From: Bacilli bacterium
GTDB taxonomy: Bacteria; Bacillota_I; Bacilli_A; RFN20; CAG-826
Length of the DNA stretch: 64,000 bases
Assembly: GCA_024408335.1 (NCBI GenBank)
Contig: JAKSVB010000006.1
Location: 1-64,000, forward strand
Reading direction: 5' to 3'
Part shown: one piece after another, positions 12,387-59,938 of the stretch
Layout: every line of letters begins with the position of its first letter
Numbering within the stretch: position 1 is the first letter of the stretch
Position numbers and translations under genes: made by a program
The notes under the pieces: model-generated
Seen by the model: the letters and a program-made list of their open reading frames with translations, nothing else
The model's database searches: none
Told to the model about the DNA's origin: nothing

Positions 12387-12992
12387 ATGTATCGTTTCTT
12401 CTATAACCGCGCCGCTATAGGCGACATCCTCATCGTTGTGATGAATCCAGAAGCACGCGTCGATCACAAAAAAGAACTCGGCAATATCGTTGCTCTATAC
12501 GATGAGAAAGACACGCTTGTCGGAATCAACATCTTTAACATCGGCGAAGTGATGAAAATCAAGGTCAATGGAGTCATCATGATCCCTGATGAAAAGATGC
12601 TTGAGATCATCAATAACCTCTTGACCAAAGAAGGGCTAGAAGCTCTCCCAACCCTAACTGAATCGGGATACAAAGTCGCTCTAGTTACAAAAGTAGAGGA
12701 ACACCCTCTTGATGAGAAGGCTCAAATCCTAGAGTTAAGCTGTGGCGATGACAAATATGAGACAGTGAGTTCATATCCAAACGTCAAAGCAGGTTCAAAG
12801 GTTGTCGTCGCAACGGATGGCACAATCCTCTATGACGGATCATTGTTCCACAAAGCCATCATAAGAAACATCAACAATGACGTCCTCGTCGTAAGCGCCC
12901 CAGAGCTTAGGATCGAAGGTAGCGCCAACGAGGCTTTCCTTCTTGATGATGAACCATCATTCAAAGAAGGCGAAGACTTCTTCCTTAGATAA
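12387..12992 (+). CDS. ytpR: YtpR family tRNA-binding protein
   Basis: 201 aa, the same length as B. subtilis YtpR. The N-terminal half is the DUF4479-type domain (MYRFFYNRAAIGDILIVVM). The C-terminal half (about 95-200) is an OB-fold tRNA-binding domain related to the N-terminus of PheT, with VALVTKVEEHPLDEKAQILELS and AELRIEGSANEAFLL-like segments (here SAPELRIEGSANEAFLL). The cellular role is not established. The start at 12387 follows AAGGAG, 10 bases after the trmB stop. A strong terminator ends this operon. Confidence 0.9.
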   Translation: MYRFFYNRAAIGDILIVVMNPEARVDHKKELGNIVALYDEKDTLVGINIFNIGEVMKIKVNGVIMIPDEKMLEIINNLLTKEGLEALPTLTESGYKVALVTKVEEHPLDEKAQILELSCGDDKYETVSSYPNVKAGSKVVVATDGTILYDGSLFHKAIIRNINNDVLVVSAPELRIEGSANEAFLLDDEPSFKEGEDFFLR

Positions 12993-13036: not shown

Positions 13037-13096
13037 CTTTTTGCCCTCAAAACAACCGGCAAACTTGACAAAATATAGTTGTTTCAGTTCTGAAAA

Positions 13097-13180
13097 CCTT
13101 GGAAAACACACTGTTTTTGATGAAAAAAACCTTGGAAAACACACTGTTTTTGATGAAAAAAACCTTGGAAAACACACTTT
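13097..13180. repeat. 33-bp tandem repeat array without an adjacent ATPase gene
   Basis: CCTTGGAAAACACACTG begins at 13097 and 13130, and again at 13163 (last copy partial), with an exact 33-bp period and identical spacer TTTTTGATGAAAAAAA. It lies between the ytpR terminator and the 3' end of yggS. Arrays of the same style precede ATPase genes at 23970 and 53572, but no gene is left here. Confidence 0.85.
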
Positions 13181-13223
13181 TTCTAAAAGTTATTTATTAT
13201 ATAAATAATTGTTTGAGTCAAAA

Positions 13224-22648: not shown

Positions 22649-23841
22649 ATTACGATTCACTCATGATTCACTACGGAGAACTCTCCACCAAAGGTGAAAA
22701 CAGAAAGCAGTTCATTAGAGAACTTAACAAAAACATCAGACACGCCATCAAGGAATTCGGCTGCACAGTCACTAATGACCATGATCACACATACGTCAAA
22801 TTCCCTGATGATCCAATGCCTATCATCGACCGTCTCCAAAAGGTAAGTGGCATCCAACGCATATCACTTGTCTATAAATCAAGCAGAGACATCGAAACCT
22901 TAAAGAAAGACGCTCTTGAGCTCATCAAGCTTGAGGAAGGTAAAACATTCAAGGTCGTTGCTAAAAGAGGAGATAAGACATATCCTCTCGATTCTCATGG
23001 GGTAAATGTCGCTTTAGCAGGCATGATTCTAAGAAACACTGAACTTAAAGTCGATGTTCATAACCCTGATATTGTCCTTAAAGCAGACGTAAGAAAAGAT
23101 GCCGTATATCTTTCAAGCCACACATATTACGGCGCTGGAGGATATCCTCTTGGAATGAATGGCAAAGTTATGATGATGCTTAGTGGTGGCATCGATTCAC
23201 CTGTTGCGGCTTATCTTCTTTTAAGAAGAGGCATCAGAATCGAATGCATCCATTTCGCAGCCCCTCCATACACAAGTGATGCGGTTATCGATAAGCTTAC
23301 TGATATCATCAAGCAGCTTAATGTCTATCAAGAAGACATCAAGCTCAATATCATCCCATTCACAAAGCTTCAACTTGCCATCTATCAAAACGTTCCTGAA
23401 CCATACTGCATCACCATTATGAGAAGAATGATGTACCGCCTTGCTGAAAAGCTTGGTAAATACCATCACTGCATCGGCATCGCCAATGGTGAATCGGTAG
23501 GCCAAGTCGCATCTCAAACCCTTGACTCAATGATCACGATCAATAACGTCACTAATTTCCCTGTCATTCGTCCTCTTGCCGTAAGTGACAAAGTCGACAT
23601 AATCAAAATGGCAGGGAATATAGGAACATTTGATATTTCAATTAGACCTTATGAAGATTGCTGCACGATCTTCAAACCTAAGAAGCCAAAAACAAAACCA
23701 AGAATCGATGAATGTGAGTTCTACGAATCAAAATTTGATTGGCAAACAATGATTGAAGAATGTATCCACGACGTCAAATCTATCCTAGTAAGAGATGGAG
23801 AAGTGGTGAATTTTGCAGAAAAAGAACAACAACCGTCTTAA
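22645..23841 (+). CDS. thiI: tRNA 4-thiouridine synthase / sulfurtransferase
   Basis: 398 aa. An N-terminal ferredoxin-like region and a THUMP RNA-binding domain (about 60-165) precede a PP-loop adenylation domain with SGGIDSPVAAYLLLRRG. CITIMRRMMYRLAE and GESVGQVASQTLDS are typical ThiI segments. The C-terminal rhodanese domain of the E. coli enzyme is absent, as in other Firmicutes. It overlaps the desulfurase stop by ATGA, which fits direct sulfur transfer between the two products. Confidence 0.95.
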   Translation: MNYDSLMIHYGELSTKGENRKQFIRELNKNIRHAIKEFGCTVTNDHDHTYVKFPDDPMPIIDRLQKVSGIQRISLVYKSSRDIETLKKDALELIKLEEGKTFKVVAKRGDKTYPLDSHGVNVALAGMILRNTELKVDVHNPDIVLKADVRKDAVYLSSHTYYGAGGYPLGMNGKVMMMLSGGIDSPVAAYLLLRRGIRIECIHFAAPPYTSDAVIDKLTDIIKQLNVYQEDIKLNIIPFTKLQLAIYQNVPEPYCITIMRRMMYRLAEKLGKYHHCIGIANGESVGQVASQTLDSMITINNVTNFPVIRPLAVSDKVDIIKMAGNIGTFDISIRPYEDCCTIFKPKKPKTKPRIDECEFYESKFDWQTMIEECIHDVKSILVRDGEVVNFAEKEQQPS

Positions 23842-23857
23842 TAAGACGGTTTTCTTT
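23831..23857 (+). terminator. Terminator overlapping the end of thiI
   Basis: Perfect 9-bp stem AACCGTCTT/AAGACGGTT with a 3-base loop containing the stop codon, then TTTTCTTTT. Confidence 0.88.
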
Positions 23858-23866
23858 TGGAAAAGA

Positions 23867-23943
23867 AGTTCTAAAGAGTTCTAAAATTTAAAAAAAGTTC
23901 TAAAGAGTTCTAAATCTTGAAAAAAGTTCTAAAGAGTTCTAAA
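23867..23943. repeat. 29-bp tandem repeat array upstream of an ATPase gene
   Basis: AGTTCTAAAGAGTTCTAAA begins at 23867, 23896 and 23925, an exact 29-bp period. Each copy contains GTTCTAAA twice, 10 bp apart (one helical turn). The array ends 26 bp before the ATPase ATG and overlaps its expected promoter and leader. Confidence 0.9.
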
Positions 23944-23969
23944 ATTTTGATGACGAGGAGGACTTTGCA

Positions 23970-25016
23970 ATGAACAATCCATTTTCTATGACATTTGGCT
24001 TGGAACCAACCAATTTAATTAAACGTATAACGGAAAGCGAGAAAATCATTAGTGAGTTTTCGAATGACAATCCTTCAAACCACGCATATGTGATAACGGG
24101 TCTTAGAGGAAGCGGTAAGACGGTTCTCATGTCATATATATCTTCACATTTTAAGGAAATGAAGGATTGGATTGTCGTTGATCCTGGAGTAAAAGACAAC
24201 ATAATAGAAAATGTCGCTTCTGAACTATATGAAAACGGAAAACTCAAAAAGCTTTTCATAAAAAGCGAATTTGACTTCTCCTTTAAGGGAATTTCTTTCT
24301 CCATTCATGGCGAAGAGCCAGTTTCTTCAGCATATGCCCTCCTAAAAAAGATGCTTACCTATCTTAAAAAGAAAGGAAAGAACGTTCTTATTACGATTGA
24401 TGAAGTCGATAATAGCGAACAAATGAAGCGTTTTGTTGAAGCGTATCAAAGTCTTCTTAGAGAGAAATTCCCTGTAAGATTATTGATGACAGGTCTATTC
24501 GAGAATATCGCAAAATTGCAAGATGACAAGAGCTTAACGTTCTTGTATAGGGCACCAAAAGTGCTTCTTGGCCCTCTCAACGAAGGTATCATTAAGTGTT
24601 CTTACAAAGAACTTCTTGGAGTCGACGATGAATTAGCTCTTAAGCTTACGCGCTTGTCAAAAGGCTATGCATATGCCTATCAGACCATAGGATACTTGAT
24701 GTTCGAAAAAGGAGGCAAATCCATCACCGAAATGTTTTTGGCTGAATATGAACAATATTTAGTGGATTACGTATATGAAAAGATAGTGTCAGAGCTATCA
24801 AAAACAGAGAAAAAGATTCTTGCCAATTACGAAGATGATAAGGATATTAAGCTTTCCGAAATAGCGGCTCGAGCCAATATGGACGAAAAAACAATAAGCG
24901 TTTACCGCGATCGCCTCATCAAAAAGGGCATCATAAGGCAAACCAATTATGGGTATACAGAACTGACCCTGCCAAGATTTGCTCATTATCTCAAATTGGT
25001 ATCTTACCTTCATTAA
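23970..25016 (+). CDS. Orc1/Cdc6-like AAA ATPase with C-terminal winged helix
   Basis: 348 aa. Walker A GLRGSGKT (44-51) and Walker B LITIDEVD (D144, E145) are intact. LLMTGLFENI follows as a sensor-like segment. The last ~70 residues form a winged helix (KLSEIAARANMDEKTISVYRDRLIKKGIIR). The family is the AAA ATPase group related to archaeal/Orc1 ATP-binding proteins found in many gut Firmicutes, with no established role. GAGGAGG precedes the ATG. The tandem repeats just upstream are candidate binding sites for its winged helix. It is a single-gene unit with its own terminator. Confidence 0.8.
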   Translation: MNNPFSMTFGLEPTNLIKRITESEKIISEFSNDNPSNHAYVITGLRGSGKTVLMSYISSHFKEMKDWIVVDPGVKDNIIENVASELYENGKLKKLFIKSEFDFSFKGISFSIHGEEPVSSAYALLKKMLTYLKKKGKNVLITIDEVDNSEQMKRFVEAYQSLLREKFPVRLLMTGLFENIAKLQDDKSLTFLYRAPKVLLGPLNEGIIKCSYKELLGVDDELALKLTRLSKGYAYAYQTIGYLMFEKGGKSITEMFLAEYEQYLVDYVYEKIVSELSKTEKKILANYEDDKDIKLSEIAARANMDEKTISVYRDRLIKKGIIRQTNYGYTELTLPRFAHYLKLVSYLH

Positions 25017-25026
25017 CGGCACCTTT

Positions 25027-25054
25027 GAACCCTAATATCTAGGGTTCTTTTTTT
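25027..25054 (+). terminator. Terminator after the ATPase gene
   Basis: 8-bp stem GAACCCTA/TAGGGTTC, loop ATATC, then a T8 run. Confidence 0.92.
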
Positions 25055-53398: not shown

Positions 53399-53452
53399 TA
53401 GCTTTTTAAGCGTGACTCGTGTTTTTTAGCACGCTGCAAGCTAAGGTTTTTT
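53399..53452 (+). terminator. Two-part hairpin terminator after the xth unit
   Basis: Outer TAGCTT/AAGCTA (53399-53404 with 53438-53443) encloses AGCGTG/CACGCT (53409-53414 with 53430-53435), followed by AGGTTTTTT. Confidence 0.6.
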
Positions 53453-53521
53453 CCGAAAATGCCGCACGAAAGTATCCGAAAACTCCGCACGAAAGTACCT
53501 GAAAACTCCGCAAATGATTTA
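53453..53521. repeat. 23-bp tandem repeat array upstream of the DUF4143 ATPase
   Basis: CCGAAAATGCCGCACGAAAG-type units begin at 53453, 53476 and 53499 (last one starting CTG), with an exact 23-bp period. It ends about 50 bp before the ATPase start codon. Confidence 0.88.
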
Positions 53522-53571: not shown

Positions 53572-54861
53572 ATGAGCGAATTATTTGAAAAAGAAGAATA
53601 TAGCAAAAGACTTATCGATTCGACCGTTGAGGAATATCTACAAAGCTGTGGAGCAATATGCATTGAGGGACCTAAATGGTGCGGAAAGACTTGGACATCT
53701 GCTTATCACTCTAATAGCGAGTTCTTTGTTGGGGATCCAGATAGAGACTTCGAAAATAGAGAATTAGCGAGAATGAAGCCAAGCCTAGTTTTAAAGGGCG
53801 AAACGCCGAGGATGATCGATGAATGGCAAGAAGTGCCACAATTATGGGATGCGGCAAGAAGCTTTGTTGATAGATCAAAAGAATTTGGCTTATTGATACT
53901 TACTGGTTCCTCCACCCCAAAAACAAAAGGCGTAATGCATACGGGTGCTGGCAGAATCGTAAGCATCAGAATGAACACCATGTCTCTTTACGAATCGGGA
54001 GATTCCTTAGGGTTAGTATCGCTTAAGGATCTTATCGATGGAAAGATCGAAGAGCAACTAGTAGAAGAAGTTGAACTCGAGCACTTAGCAAGACTCATAG
54101 TTCGCGGTGGTTGGCCAAGAAATATCCACGCAAAAAATCCTAATATAATGCCAAAATCCTATGCAGATAAGATAATCAATGGCGATCCTGACGATGAAGA
54201 AAACGGTATAACAAAGAGGCTATCAAGAGATAGACTAGAAAAAATACTGAAATCGTTAGCAAGAAACGAATCCACAACAGCAAGCATTTGCAAAATCGCT
54301 TCCGATATCGAGAACTATGACGGAACAAAGGTTTCACCTGACACCGTTGGAAGATACGTCGAAGAGTTAAAAAGAATGTTTTTGTTTAACGATCAGCCAC
54401 CATTTGAGCCTAACGTGAGATCATCTCTTAGGGCCAAGGGATCGGTAAAAAGACACTTCTGCGACCCATCGCTTGCTTGTGCATTACTAGATTTGAACGA
54501 GAAGAAACTGATTGGTGATTTAAACACATTCGGCTTTCTTTTTGAAGCGCTCGTAGAAAGAGACTTAAGCGTGTATGCGCAGTCCATAGGAGCCAAACTA
54601 TATCATTATCAAAATTATTCTGATGAAGAAATAGATGCCGTTATTGAACTTGATGACGGCAATTGGTGCGCCTTTGAGATAAAACTCGGAGGAAACCGAG
54701 TTGAAGAAGGCGCCAAAAACTTAATAAAGGTATGTAATCACATTGTCGAAAAAGGTGGTAAAGAACCGGTCTTAAAAGCAGTTATCTGCGGTCTTACAAA
54801 CGCAATTTACCAACGAGATGATGGGGTGTTTGTTTTCCCTATAACATGCTTAAAAAACTAA
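53572..54861 (+). CDS. AAA ATPase with DUF4143 domain
   Basis: 429 aa. Walker A is GPKWCGKT (33-40), Walker B MIDEWQEVPQLWD, and LLILTGSSTP a sensor-like motif. The C-terminal DUF4143 region reads HFCDPSLACALL, FGFLFEALVERDL and IDAVIELDDGNWCAFEIK, the latter matching a restriction-like D-ExK pattern. The family is very common in gut bacteria and archaea, with no settled function. AAGGTGG precedes the ATG. It has its own repeat array and terminator, like the ATPase at 23970, although the two proteins are not close homologues. Confidence 0.88.
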   Translation: MSELFEKEEYSKRLIDSTVEEYLQSCGAICIEGPKWCGKTWTSAYHSNSEFFVGDPDRDFENRELARMKPSLVLKGETPRMIDEWQEVPQLWDAARSFVDRSKEFGLLILTGSSTPKTKGVMHTGAGRIVSIRMNTMSLYESGDSLGLVSLKDLIDGKIEEQLVEEVELEHLARLIVRGGWPRNIHAKNPNIMPKSYADKIINGDPDDEENGITKRLSRDRLEKILKSLARNESTTASICKIASDIENYDGTKVSPDTVGRYVEELKRMFLFNDQPPFEPNVRSSLRAKGSVKRHFCDPSLACALLDLNEKKLIGDLNTFGFLFEALVERDLSVYAQSIGAKLYHYQNYSDEEIDAVIELDDGNWCAFEIKLGGNRVEEGAKNLIKVCNHIVEKGGKEPVLKAVICGLTNAIYQRDDGVFVFPITCLKN

Positions 54862-59082: not shown

Positions 59083-59604
59083 CTAATCGTGATGATGGCA
59101 GTCGCAGCCTTCTTCGTGGCAGTGGCATCCTTCATCACCATGGTCGCAGTCACATTCATCGCCGCCATGGTGATGTTCATGGCAACATACCTCATGTTCG
59201 TGATGGTGATGTCCACAACATCCTTCGTGGTGATGGTGGTGTTCACAGCCACATCCTTCTTCGTGATCTAACTGTAGAGGTGAATTATGCACTAACTGGA
59301 TCTCATTATGAATGAAAGCCTGCACGACCATATCAAGGTTGCCTCTAACTCCTGCGAAGACTTCGATTCCAATCTTGTTAAGCGTATCTACAGCCTTCTC
59401 GTTGATTAACGCCGCAACGACGGCGTATACCCCAACGTCCTTAAGCGTCATAGCGATCTCTTCTTCATTTTCGGAATTATTGAGGATCTCGCTTTTTCCA
59501 AGAATCGTCATCTCTTCTGGATCGACGTCATAAAGCTTAAAGTATCTTGCTTCGCTAAATTCCATCATCATTTCTTCATCGATTGAAGGGCAGGCAATTC
59601 TCAT
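59083..59604 (-). CDS. NifX/NifB-type metal-cofactor-binding domain with His/Cys-rich tail
   Basis: 173 aa. Residues 1-112 are the dinitrogenase iron-molybdenum cofactor family fold (MRIACPSIDEEMMMEFSEAR, VYAVVAALINEKAVDTLNKI, GIEVFAGVRGN). Residues 113-173 are almost entirely metal ligands: 21 His and 12 Cys in 61 residues. Stand-alone members of this family occur in non-nitrogen-fixers with unclear roles in Fe-S or metal handling. The tail would bind several Ni, Zn, Fe or Cu ions. I start at 59604, 9 bases after GGAG, rather than at the ATG six bases earlier. It lies close to feo and the DtxR-type gene. Confidence 0.85.
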   Translation of the reverse strand: MRIACPSIDEEMMMEFSEARYFKLYDVDPEEMTILGKSEILNNSENEEEIAMTLKDVGVYAVVAALINEKAVDTLNKIGIEVFAGVRGNLDMVVQAFIHNEIQLVHNSPLQLDHEEGCGCEHHHHHEGCCGHHHHEHEVCCHEHHHGGDECDCDHGDEGCHCHEEGCDCHHHD

Positions 59605-59938
59605 AATCATTCACTCCTATTTTGTCGCATTCATTAAAGCAAAAAGTGAGGAAAACGCAAGAGAGGAACGTAAAAACATAAAAATACTGCTAACAAAGCT
59701 ACAAACCTTCTGATAACGGCATTTAGTTAAGCCCCACTAAAATCAAAGAAAACAAAAAATACTCCAAAATATCGAAAAAACTCGTTAATTCCTAATGTTT
59801 TGGAAATAACAAGAGAAAAAAGAAGTGATGTTTGAGCCACTAGTCGAGCGAAATAATCGCCTCCCACAAGGGACAATACGCTAAAAAGATGGTCATAAGT
59901 TTAGAAGAAAGGCACACAATAATTTGTAATTTTCAATT
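59605..59938. other. Intergenic region without a recognised gene
   Basis: AT-rich stretch between divergent genes. TTAGT and ACTAA occur 8 bases apart at 59723-59740, too widely spaced to match the operator core. No open frame with a ribosome-binding site was found. Confidence 0.5.

Follow-up and report, generated by a model that had tools for sequence, protein, structure and literature searches.

An ATPase gene and its upstream direct-repeat array in a Bacilli bacterium as a putative autoregulated single-gene module

The locus and its ATPase

The window analysed here, the whole stretch of 64,000 nucleotides, carries on its forward strand a compact unit made of a repeat array and one ATPase gene. 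The array, a putative private operator, comprises three 29-bp units at 23868-23943, each with two GTTCTAAA half-sites whose starts lie 10 bp apart (pairs at 23868/23878, 23897/23907 and 23926/23936), all six half-sites pointing in one direction. TRF reported a period of 29, 3.0 copies and 89% matches. Allowing up to three mismatches, the pair GTTCTAAAGAGTTCTAAA was found exactly three times in the whole window, and three such pairs were reached in none of 100 dinucleotide shuffles. The final half-site ends at 23943 and, following a gap of 26 bp, the ATPase gene (23970-25016, 348 aa) starts with an ATG at 23970; a ribosome-binding site AGGAGG, assigned from sequence, lies 8 nt before it (23956-23961). 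Terminator-like hairpins were located at 23831-23851, where the upstream thiI-like gene ends, and at 25027-25047, after the ATPase gene. The original prediction of repeats, gap, ATPase and flanking terminators held in these respects.

A sigma-70-type promoter, TTGAAA-17-TAAAAT (23917-23945, forward strand, 10/12 matches), is among the best matches of its type in the stretch. The last two half-sites occupy its spacer, with the TAAA of the final one forming part of the -10 box, a layout that recurs in many homologues. Within the genome itself (G000), the sole site of the motif pair is the array; two more matches with two mismatches were not above the control count. Likewise, the GTTATGAAA word of other members was found only at the own locus in G027 and G099 and was absent from G013 and G259.

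In many congeners (L136-L142, L154), a convergent rplT comes after the thiI-like gene. This neighbour is missing in the window, and the region has therefore been rearranged. No clean empty site was found for the window's copy, as thiI in congeners precedes other genes, often convergent rplT, and the right neighbour differs too.

The encoded protein met the Pfam ATPase_2 model (PF01637) with 34.8 bits (gathering score 33.2), and NPHP3_N, AAA_14, NB-ARC and the winged-helix model HTH_24 also scored over their cut-offs. Walker A (GLRGSGKT, residues 44-51, 24099-24122) is conserved, G47, G49 and K50 being invariant in alignments of 44 and 70 members; Walker B is intact as well, with K50 and D144 invariant in two homologue alignments. 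An AlphaFold2 model built on an alignment of 70 homologues (mean pLDDT 88.5) places a winged-helix domain at the C-terminus (residues 278-332, 24801-24965), with helices at 278-284 and 295-301, the recognition helix at 306-319 (EKTISVYRDRLIKK, 24885-24926), whose residue 311 varies together with the word of the array, and a wing spanning 322-332. Structural neighbours were ranked by Z score, and a Foldseek list was also made. Closest among solved structures were PABY2304 (Z 20.5) and SSO1545 (Z 19.5), followed by plant NLR resistosomes, Aeropyrum ORC2 and CED-4. The NBD-HD-WHD architecture of STAND NTPases is present, some 300 residues aligning with CED-4 and NLRs at Z 18-19, and the model predicts a stripped STAND core of nucleotide-binding domain, helical domain and winged helix, with nothing more. 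A segment of the helical domain is conserved as GYAFAYQ, without proline, and its equivalence to the STAND GxP motif is not established.

A conserved insert, FSFSFxGxSFSI, was observed inside the ATPase domain (residues 98-113, 24261-24308) in a part of low model confidence. In 70 homologues S104 is invariant and G107 nearly so; the insert might conceivably be an oligomer or DNA contact.

The protein had also been called Orc1/Cdc6-like, which held only as far as the fold is concerned. Orc1/Cdc6 family models scored far under their cut-offs (TIGR02928, 17.3 vs 181.3 bits; PF24389, 15.1 vs 27), showing a protein near Orc1/Cdc6 in fold and not a member of that family. As 22 of 37 genomes of the genus lack the gene, an essential initiator role is unlikely. 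No Rep family scored over its cut-off in Pfam or NCBIfam, and PHROG gave weak matches only. The test for a LuxR-type HTH was not met (GerE, 20.3 bits, cut-off 23.5), the protein stopping after the winged helix, and no MerR model was among the 25 Pfam matches shown. Nor was the PADLOC PDC-S01 test met, which returned a weak P-loop match only (E=1.4e-6, residues 19-63).

Arrays, promoters and recognition helices in homologues

The ATPase is present as a single copy in its own genome. A search with the single protein as query found nothing, and an alignment was needed to find related loci. Relatives were detected in 67 of 279 genomes of the order, with a patchy spread, and in 15 of 392 genomes of a phylum-wide sample, all within the same class. 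They include uncultured Bacilli and Lachnospiraceae such as Butyrivibrio, and distant relatives lie on plasmids of Pseudobutyrivibrio, Collinsella, Lactobacillus, Bifidobacterium and Arthrobacter. Full-length relatives do occur on plasmids; most members, however, are on genome contigs and not on known plasmids. Several relatives are pseudogenes with internal stops. A phage origin was considered and rejected, with just one partial match among 50,697 phage records.

Array and gene are seen to transfer jointly in three sets of loci. Two loci from different genera (L051 and L054) are 96.5% identical around the gene (-160 to +143), and their flanks are unrelated. Three loci from three genera (L005, L043 and L046) share about 95%, and two of these sit beside different tRNA genes. 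For L017 and L045, from two families, homology runs from the first half-site to the stop codon. As a yardstick, full-length thiI proteins within the genus are 48-77% identical to the window's copy. Array and gene are thus inherited together and move between genera as one, as shown by computation. Several copies lie directly 3' of tRNA genes (upstream flanks of L005, L043 and L003; Pro and His by anticodon reading), and L004 adjoins an apparent tmRNA end. The ends of tRNA genes and of tmRNA are usual integration spots.

Upstream regions (150 bp) of the homologues were compared with shuffles (p<0.02). A significant direct-repeat array was found upstream of 72 of 76 homologues and in none of 76 coding controls; absence of the repeats upstream of homologues, which would have refuted the original prediction, did not materialise. 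Summed over the 76 homologues, repeat spacings peak at 10, 19/20, 29 and 39 bp. A set of 115 arrays has a median of 6 half-sites per array and ends at a median of 24 bp from the ATG, and 685 half-site orientations are direct vs 61 inverted. Nearly all further homologues in Bacilli and Lachnospiraceae also carry arrays; those of a few (L004, L010, L062, L096) are degenerate. The words vary widely (GTTCTAAA, CCTAACAAA, GTTATGAAA, GTATGAAA, AATGACAAA, TATACACAA, GTTGCACAA, GTTCACAAAA, GTTATAGAAA and others), and the computation shows a geometry that is fixed while the sequence is free.

A strict promoter match accompanies 53 of 120 arrays, the remaining 67 being without a promoter of that pattern. 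For 43 of the 53 recognisable promoters at least half of the -35/-10 spacer lies inside the repeats, compared with 26 expected by circular shift; an example of such nesting is TTGACA[AAAGTTATAACAAGTTA]TAAAAT. The CCTAACAAA group has its array just downstream of the -10 box, and in six of the 53 members the bulk of the array is upstream of the -35 box. An RNA-level role of the repeats was rejected, given that many members have the array lying over the promoter or upstream of it.

Covariation of the repeat word with the winged helix was looked for, with a positive outcome. Recognition helices with SVYRDRL accompany CTAA or TAAC, SQ/SK/SRYR accompany TATGA, QVYK accompanies GACAA, and NNYR and QNYR accompany TACACA or TGCACA. 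The rules linking word and residue came from the first 74 genes, so that a genuine test is provided by the later 42 alone. Overall, TATGA was present with Q, K or R at residue 311 in 14 of 15 cases and with other residues in 1 of 101. Among the later-examined genes the corresponding counts were 4/4 and 0/38, and after thinning to <60% identity the association retained a median p of 2e-6. SVYR occurred with CTAA, TATAA or ATAAC in 40/40 cases vs 14/76. A further rule, S[ST]YR with TATAG, was first seen in the later 42 genes. Pairing of Q, K or R at 311 with the guanine in the word is chemically plausible, as far as can be inferred.

Windowed and single-column partial correlations turned out to be lineage-dominated and were replaced by thinned tables and a nearest-neighbour test among distant pairs. 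For this lineage control, each protein was matched to the one most similar to it in helix residues 305-316, considering only proteins of low overall identity. With identity limits of <50%, <45% and <40%, this nearest neighbour predicted the word better than all 300 random sets of 12 ATPase columns, and with <42% better than 299 of 300; the same effect had first been seen in a smaller gene set. Windows around residues 70, 187 and 265 also score well, and the covariation signal is in part lineage, which limits it. That the array word covaries with the recognition helix is shown by computation, without binding data.

The second unit at 53.5 kb

A second unit of the window, at 53.45-54.86 kb on the forward strand, consists of an array of 2.7 x 23 bp (TCCGAAAACTCCGCACGAAAGTA, 53452-53512, a TRF-type repeat call with a period kept in homologues) and the gene of a 429-aa ATPase with AAA_14 and DUF4143 domains (53572-54861; Pfam, PADLOC). 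This protein met the PDC-S01 test (PDLC04790, E=2e-54, residues 9-427, PADLOC); a PDC label denotes a candidate defence system only. For its 30 best relatives, 23 bp was the best repeat distance in 28, and 24 were significant. Eight relatives on plasmids or phage scaffolds, the plasmids being from Bacteroidota, Chlorobiota, Actinomycetota and Bacillota, all had 23 bp as the dominant period (8/8). Promoter nesting in the DUF4143 family is weaker (10/17 vs 7.7 expected). The link between both units that had been suggested in the original prediction held, in that the same design is present in a different ATPase family.

The principle of a private array appears wider than either family. A bolder reading joins both into one claim. 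In this reading, the ATPase_2-winged-helix and AAA_14-DUF4143 families, both large, patchily distributed and of unknown function, would share a transferable module with its own operator array. Each family would keep its own geometry (10/19/29 or 23 bp) while the array sequence diversifies freely, and the module's own winged helix would do the reading; specificities would act like phage or plasmid immunity or incompatibility classes that insulate copies in one genome, and the ATPase would be a minimal STAND switch with a true DNA-reading winged helix. Taken jointly, we lean slightly against this claim. In a test of paralogue exclusion, the array words of 21 same-genome pairs differed no more than those of random pairs (p 0.38-0.52), and incompatibility is therefore unsupported by that test.

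Some further repeats were observed. Three more ATPase genes of other subfamilies in the own genome (L279, L282 and L284, on contigs C13, C2 and C13) have upstream private direct repeats with the words TTGCGGTGAAGGGGGTAAAAAGGTGCCTTGACCGCAA, CTACAAAAACNNCANGAACTTGCAAAAAAAGTAGATAGA and AAAAGTGTGGCAAAACACAAAAAA, respectively. In the window, a 33-bp tandem repeat at 13093-13182 (2.8 copies, 98%) is intergenic, flanked by a gene whose end is at 12992 and by a YggS-like gene of the opposite strand, with no adjoining ATPase gene; it could be the orphan array of a lost unit. A 175-aa ORF on the minus strand (59083-59610) encodes a His/Cys/Glu-rich tail, a 33-bp repeat at the DNA level, and its product is probably metal-binding, as inferred from sequence alone.

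Proposed mechanism and comparison with known systems

The best explanation of the first unit is a self-contained, autoregulated single-gene module, the ATPase of which reads its own array and represses through it. We consider this likely (probability of roughly 0.77), in the absence of binding or expression data. In short, the C-terminal winged helix would read the GTTCTAAA half-sites, and protomers would align head to tail along the array, one helical turn apart. As the array overlaps the best recognisable promoter of the gene, bound protomers would occlude it and repress their own transcription. The array would be private, being the sole target found in the genome, with a word that drifts along with the recognition helix while the 10/19/29-bp spacing is kept. 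As in STAND proteins, the nucleotide state (ADP/ATP) may act as the switch, here for occupancy of the array.

The array, its presence in homologues, its geometry, the covariation, the lack of other sites, the promoter overlap in many members and the joint transfer are computed results. Physical binding, cooperative head-to-tail assembly, repression over activation and nucleotide switching of occupancy are inferred only. Repression in particular is argued from array position alone: half-sites mostly fill the -35/-10 spacer where a promoter is recognisable, and autorepression is therefore the best reading. The original prediction, which took the repeats for an operator that the ATPase reads or for its assembly platform, is supported, with protein binding inferred and not shown.

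A role of the defence or selfish-element type is a possibility raised by the accessory distribution and the DUF4143 ATPase neighbourhood, and no more than a lead. Among the neighbours of 80 loci, 8 of 101 genes were of the AAA_14 type, together with single AbiEi and restriction genes and otherwise mostly housekeeping genes. The AAA_14 neighbours hint at shared islands, a defence island being merely suggested.

Of the rival explanations, a positive operator survives best and is nevertheless unlikely. The ATPase would activate its own promoter after an inducing signal, resulting in a self-amplifying switch. The STAND regulators MalT and IniR are activators, and the six members with most of their array upstream of the -35 box would fit. 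On the other hand, most members with a clear promoter have their -35/-10 spacer filled with half-sites, and others have half-sites downstream of the -10 box. Both positions suit occlusion; where the array is just after the -10 box, an activator is not expected. In addition, -35 boxes are often near consensus (TTGACA), like those of promoters needing no activator.

Secondly, the array could be an iteron-like assembly platform for replication, partition or transposition of a small mobile element, promoter control being secondary. In favour are the fold near archaeal Orc1/Cdc6, the phased direct repeats, the joint travel of array and gene and the full-length relatives on plasmids. This is, however, very unlikely: no replication or transposase gene is a regular partner among the neighbours of L165-L244, most members are on genome contigs rather than known plasmids, transferred stretches differ in length and have unrelated flanks, and the array follows promoter geometry. 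The functional likeness to iterons and a replication initiator in the original prediction is likewise not supported, because the arrays sit on the promoter of their own gene and the motif has no other genomic site.

Finally, tandem duplications are common in AT-rich intergenic DNA and half-sites share letters with -10 boxes, but the repeats as by-products of promoter duplication or slippage without a protein site, alike among relatives through ancestry alone, are all but excluded by a spacing held at 10/19/29 bp though words differ and by words that follow the recognition helix, both between proteins of <45% identity and in the genes retrieved later.

ATPases of this kind, whose function is unknown, are widespread in microbes of the gut and the environment, which often carry several copies. 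A private operator with a readable recognition code (residue 311 and its neighbours against the word) offers an entry to the family. Targets are predictable from sequence, and binding and self-control are approachable with one protein and one short DNA; under the autorepression reading, DNA occupancy could serve as a readout of the STAND nucleotide switch. With more than 100 natural protein-operator pairs, the set is also well suited to studying the DNA code of winged helices.

Among known proteins, archaeal PABY2304 (PDB 2qen) and SSO1545 (PDB 2fna), both Pfam ATPase_2, share the order of ATPase and winged helix and the length of about 350 aa, but identity is only about 15%. No description of upstream repeat arrays or self-regulation for the ATPase_2 family was found in the open-licence literature searched, which does not prove novelty. 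With CED-4, Apaf-1 and NLR resistosomes of animals and plants, the core of NBD, helical domain and winged helix superposes (Z 18-19). The winged helix of those ATPases is mainly a nucleotide-switch element, whereas the recognition helix of the window's protein varies with the DNA word, and sensor repeats and an effector domain are lacking.

MalT and IniR similarly join a STAND ATPase to a DNA-binding domain and act at promoters; a MalT structure (8bob) was among the structural matches, and IniR is an SSO1545-like STAND ATPase that induces iniBAC as an activator (PMC5760070). Both have a large sensor domain and a LuxR-type HTH and activate other genes, whereas the window's ATPase has neither a sensor domain nor another target. 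Plasmid iterons and Rep proteins offer phased direct repeats beside the gene of their binding protein. Iteron-bound Rep proteins commonly autorepress. In contrast to that system, no replication function or Rep domain was seen here, and the members are mostly lone genes on genome contigs.

The DUF4143/AAA_14 (PDC-S01) units resemble the first unit in having a private array directly upstream, with free sequence, fixed geometry and in some a nested promoter; they differ in the 23-bp period, an extra C-terminal DUF4143 domain and the other ATPase family. Lastly, BldC of Streptomyces uses a winged HTH to bind, in head-to-tail fashion and with varying copy number, direct repeats that measure roughly one turn (9 bp; PMC5859096). 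Unlike the window's ATPase it is MerR-like, has 68 residues and no ATPase, and controls many genes; for how the window's array might be filled, it serves as a working model.
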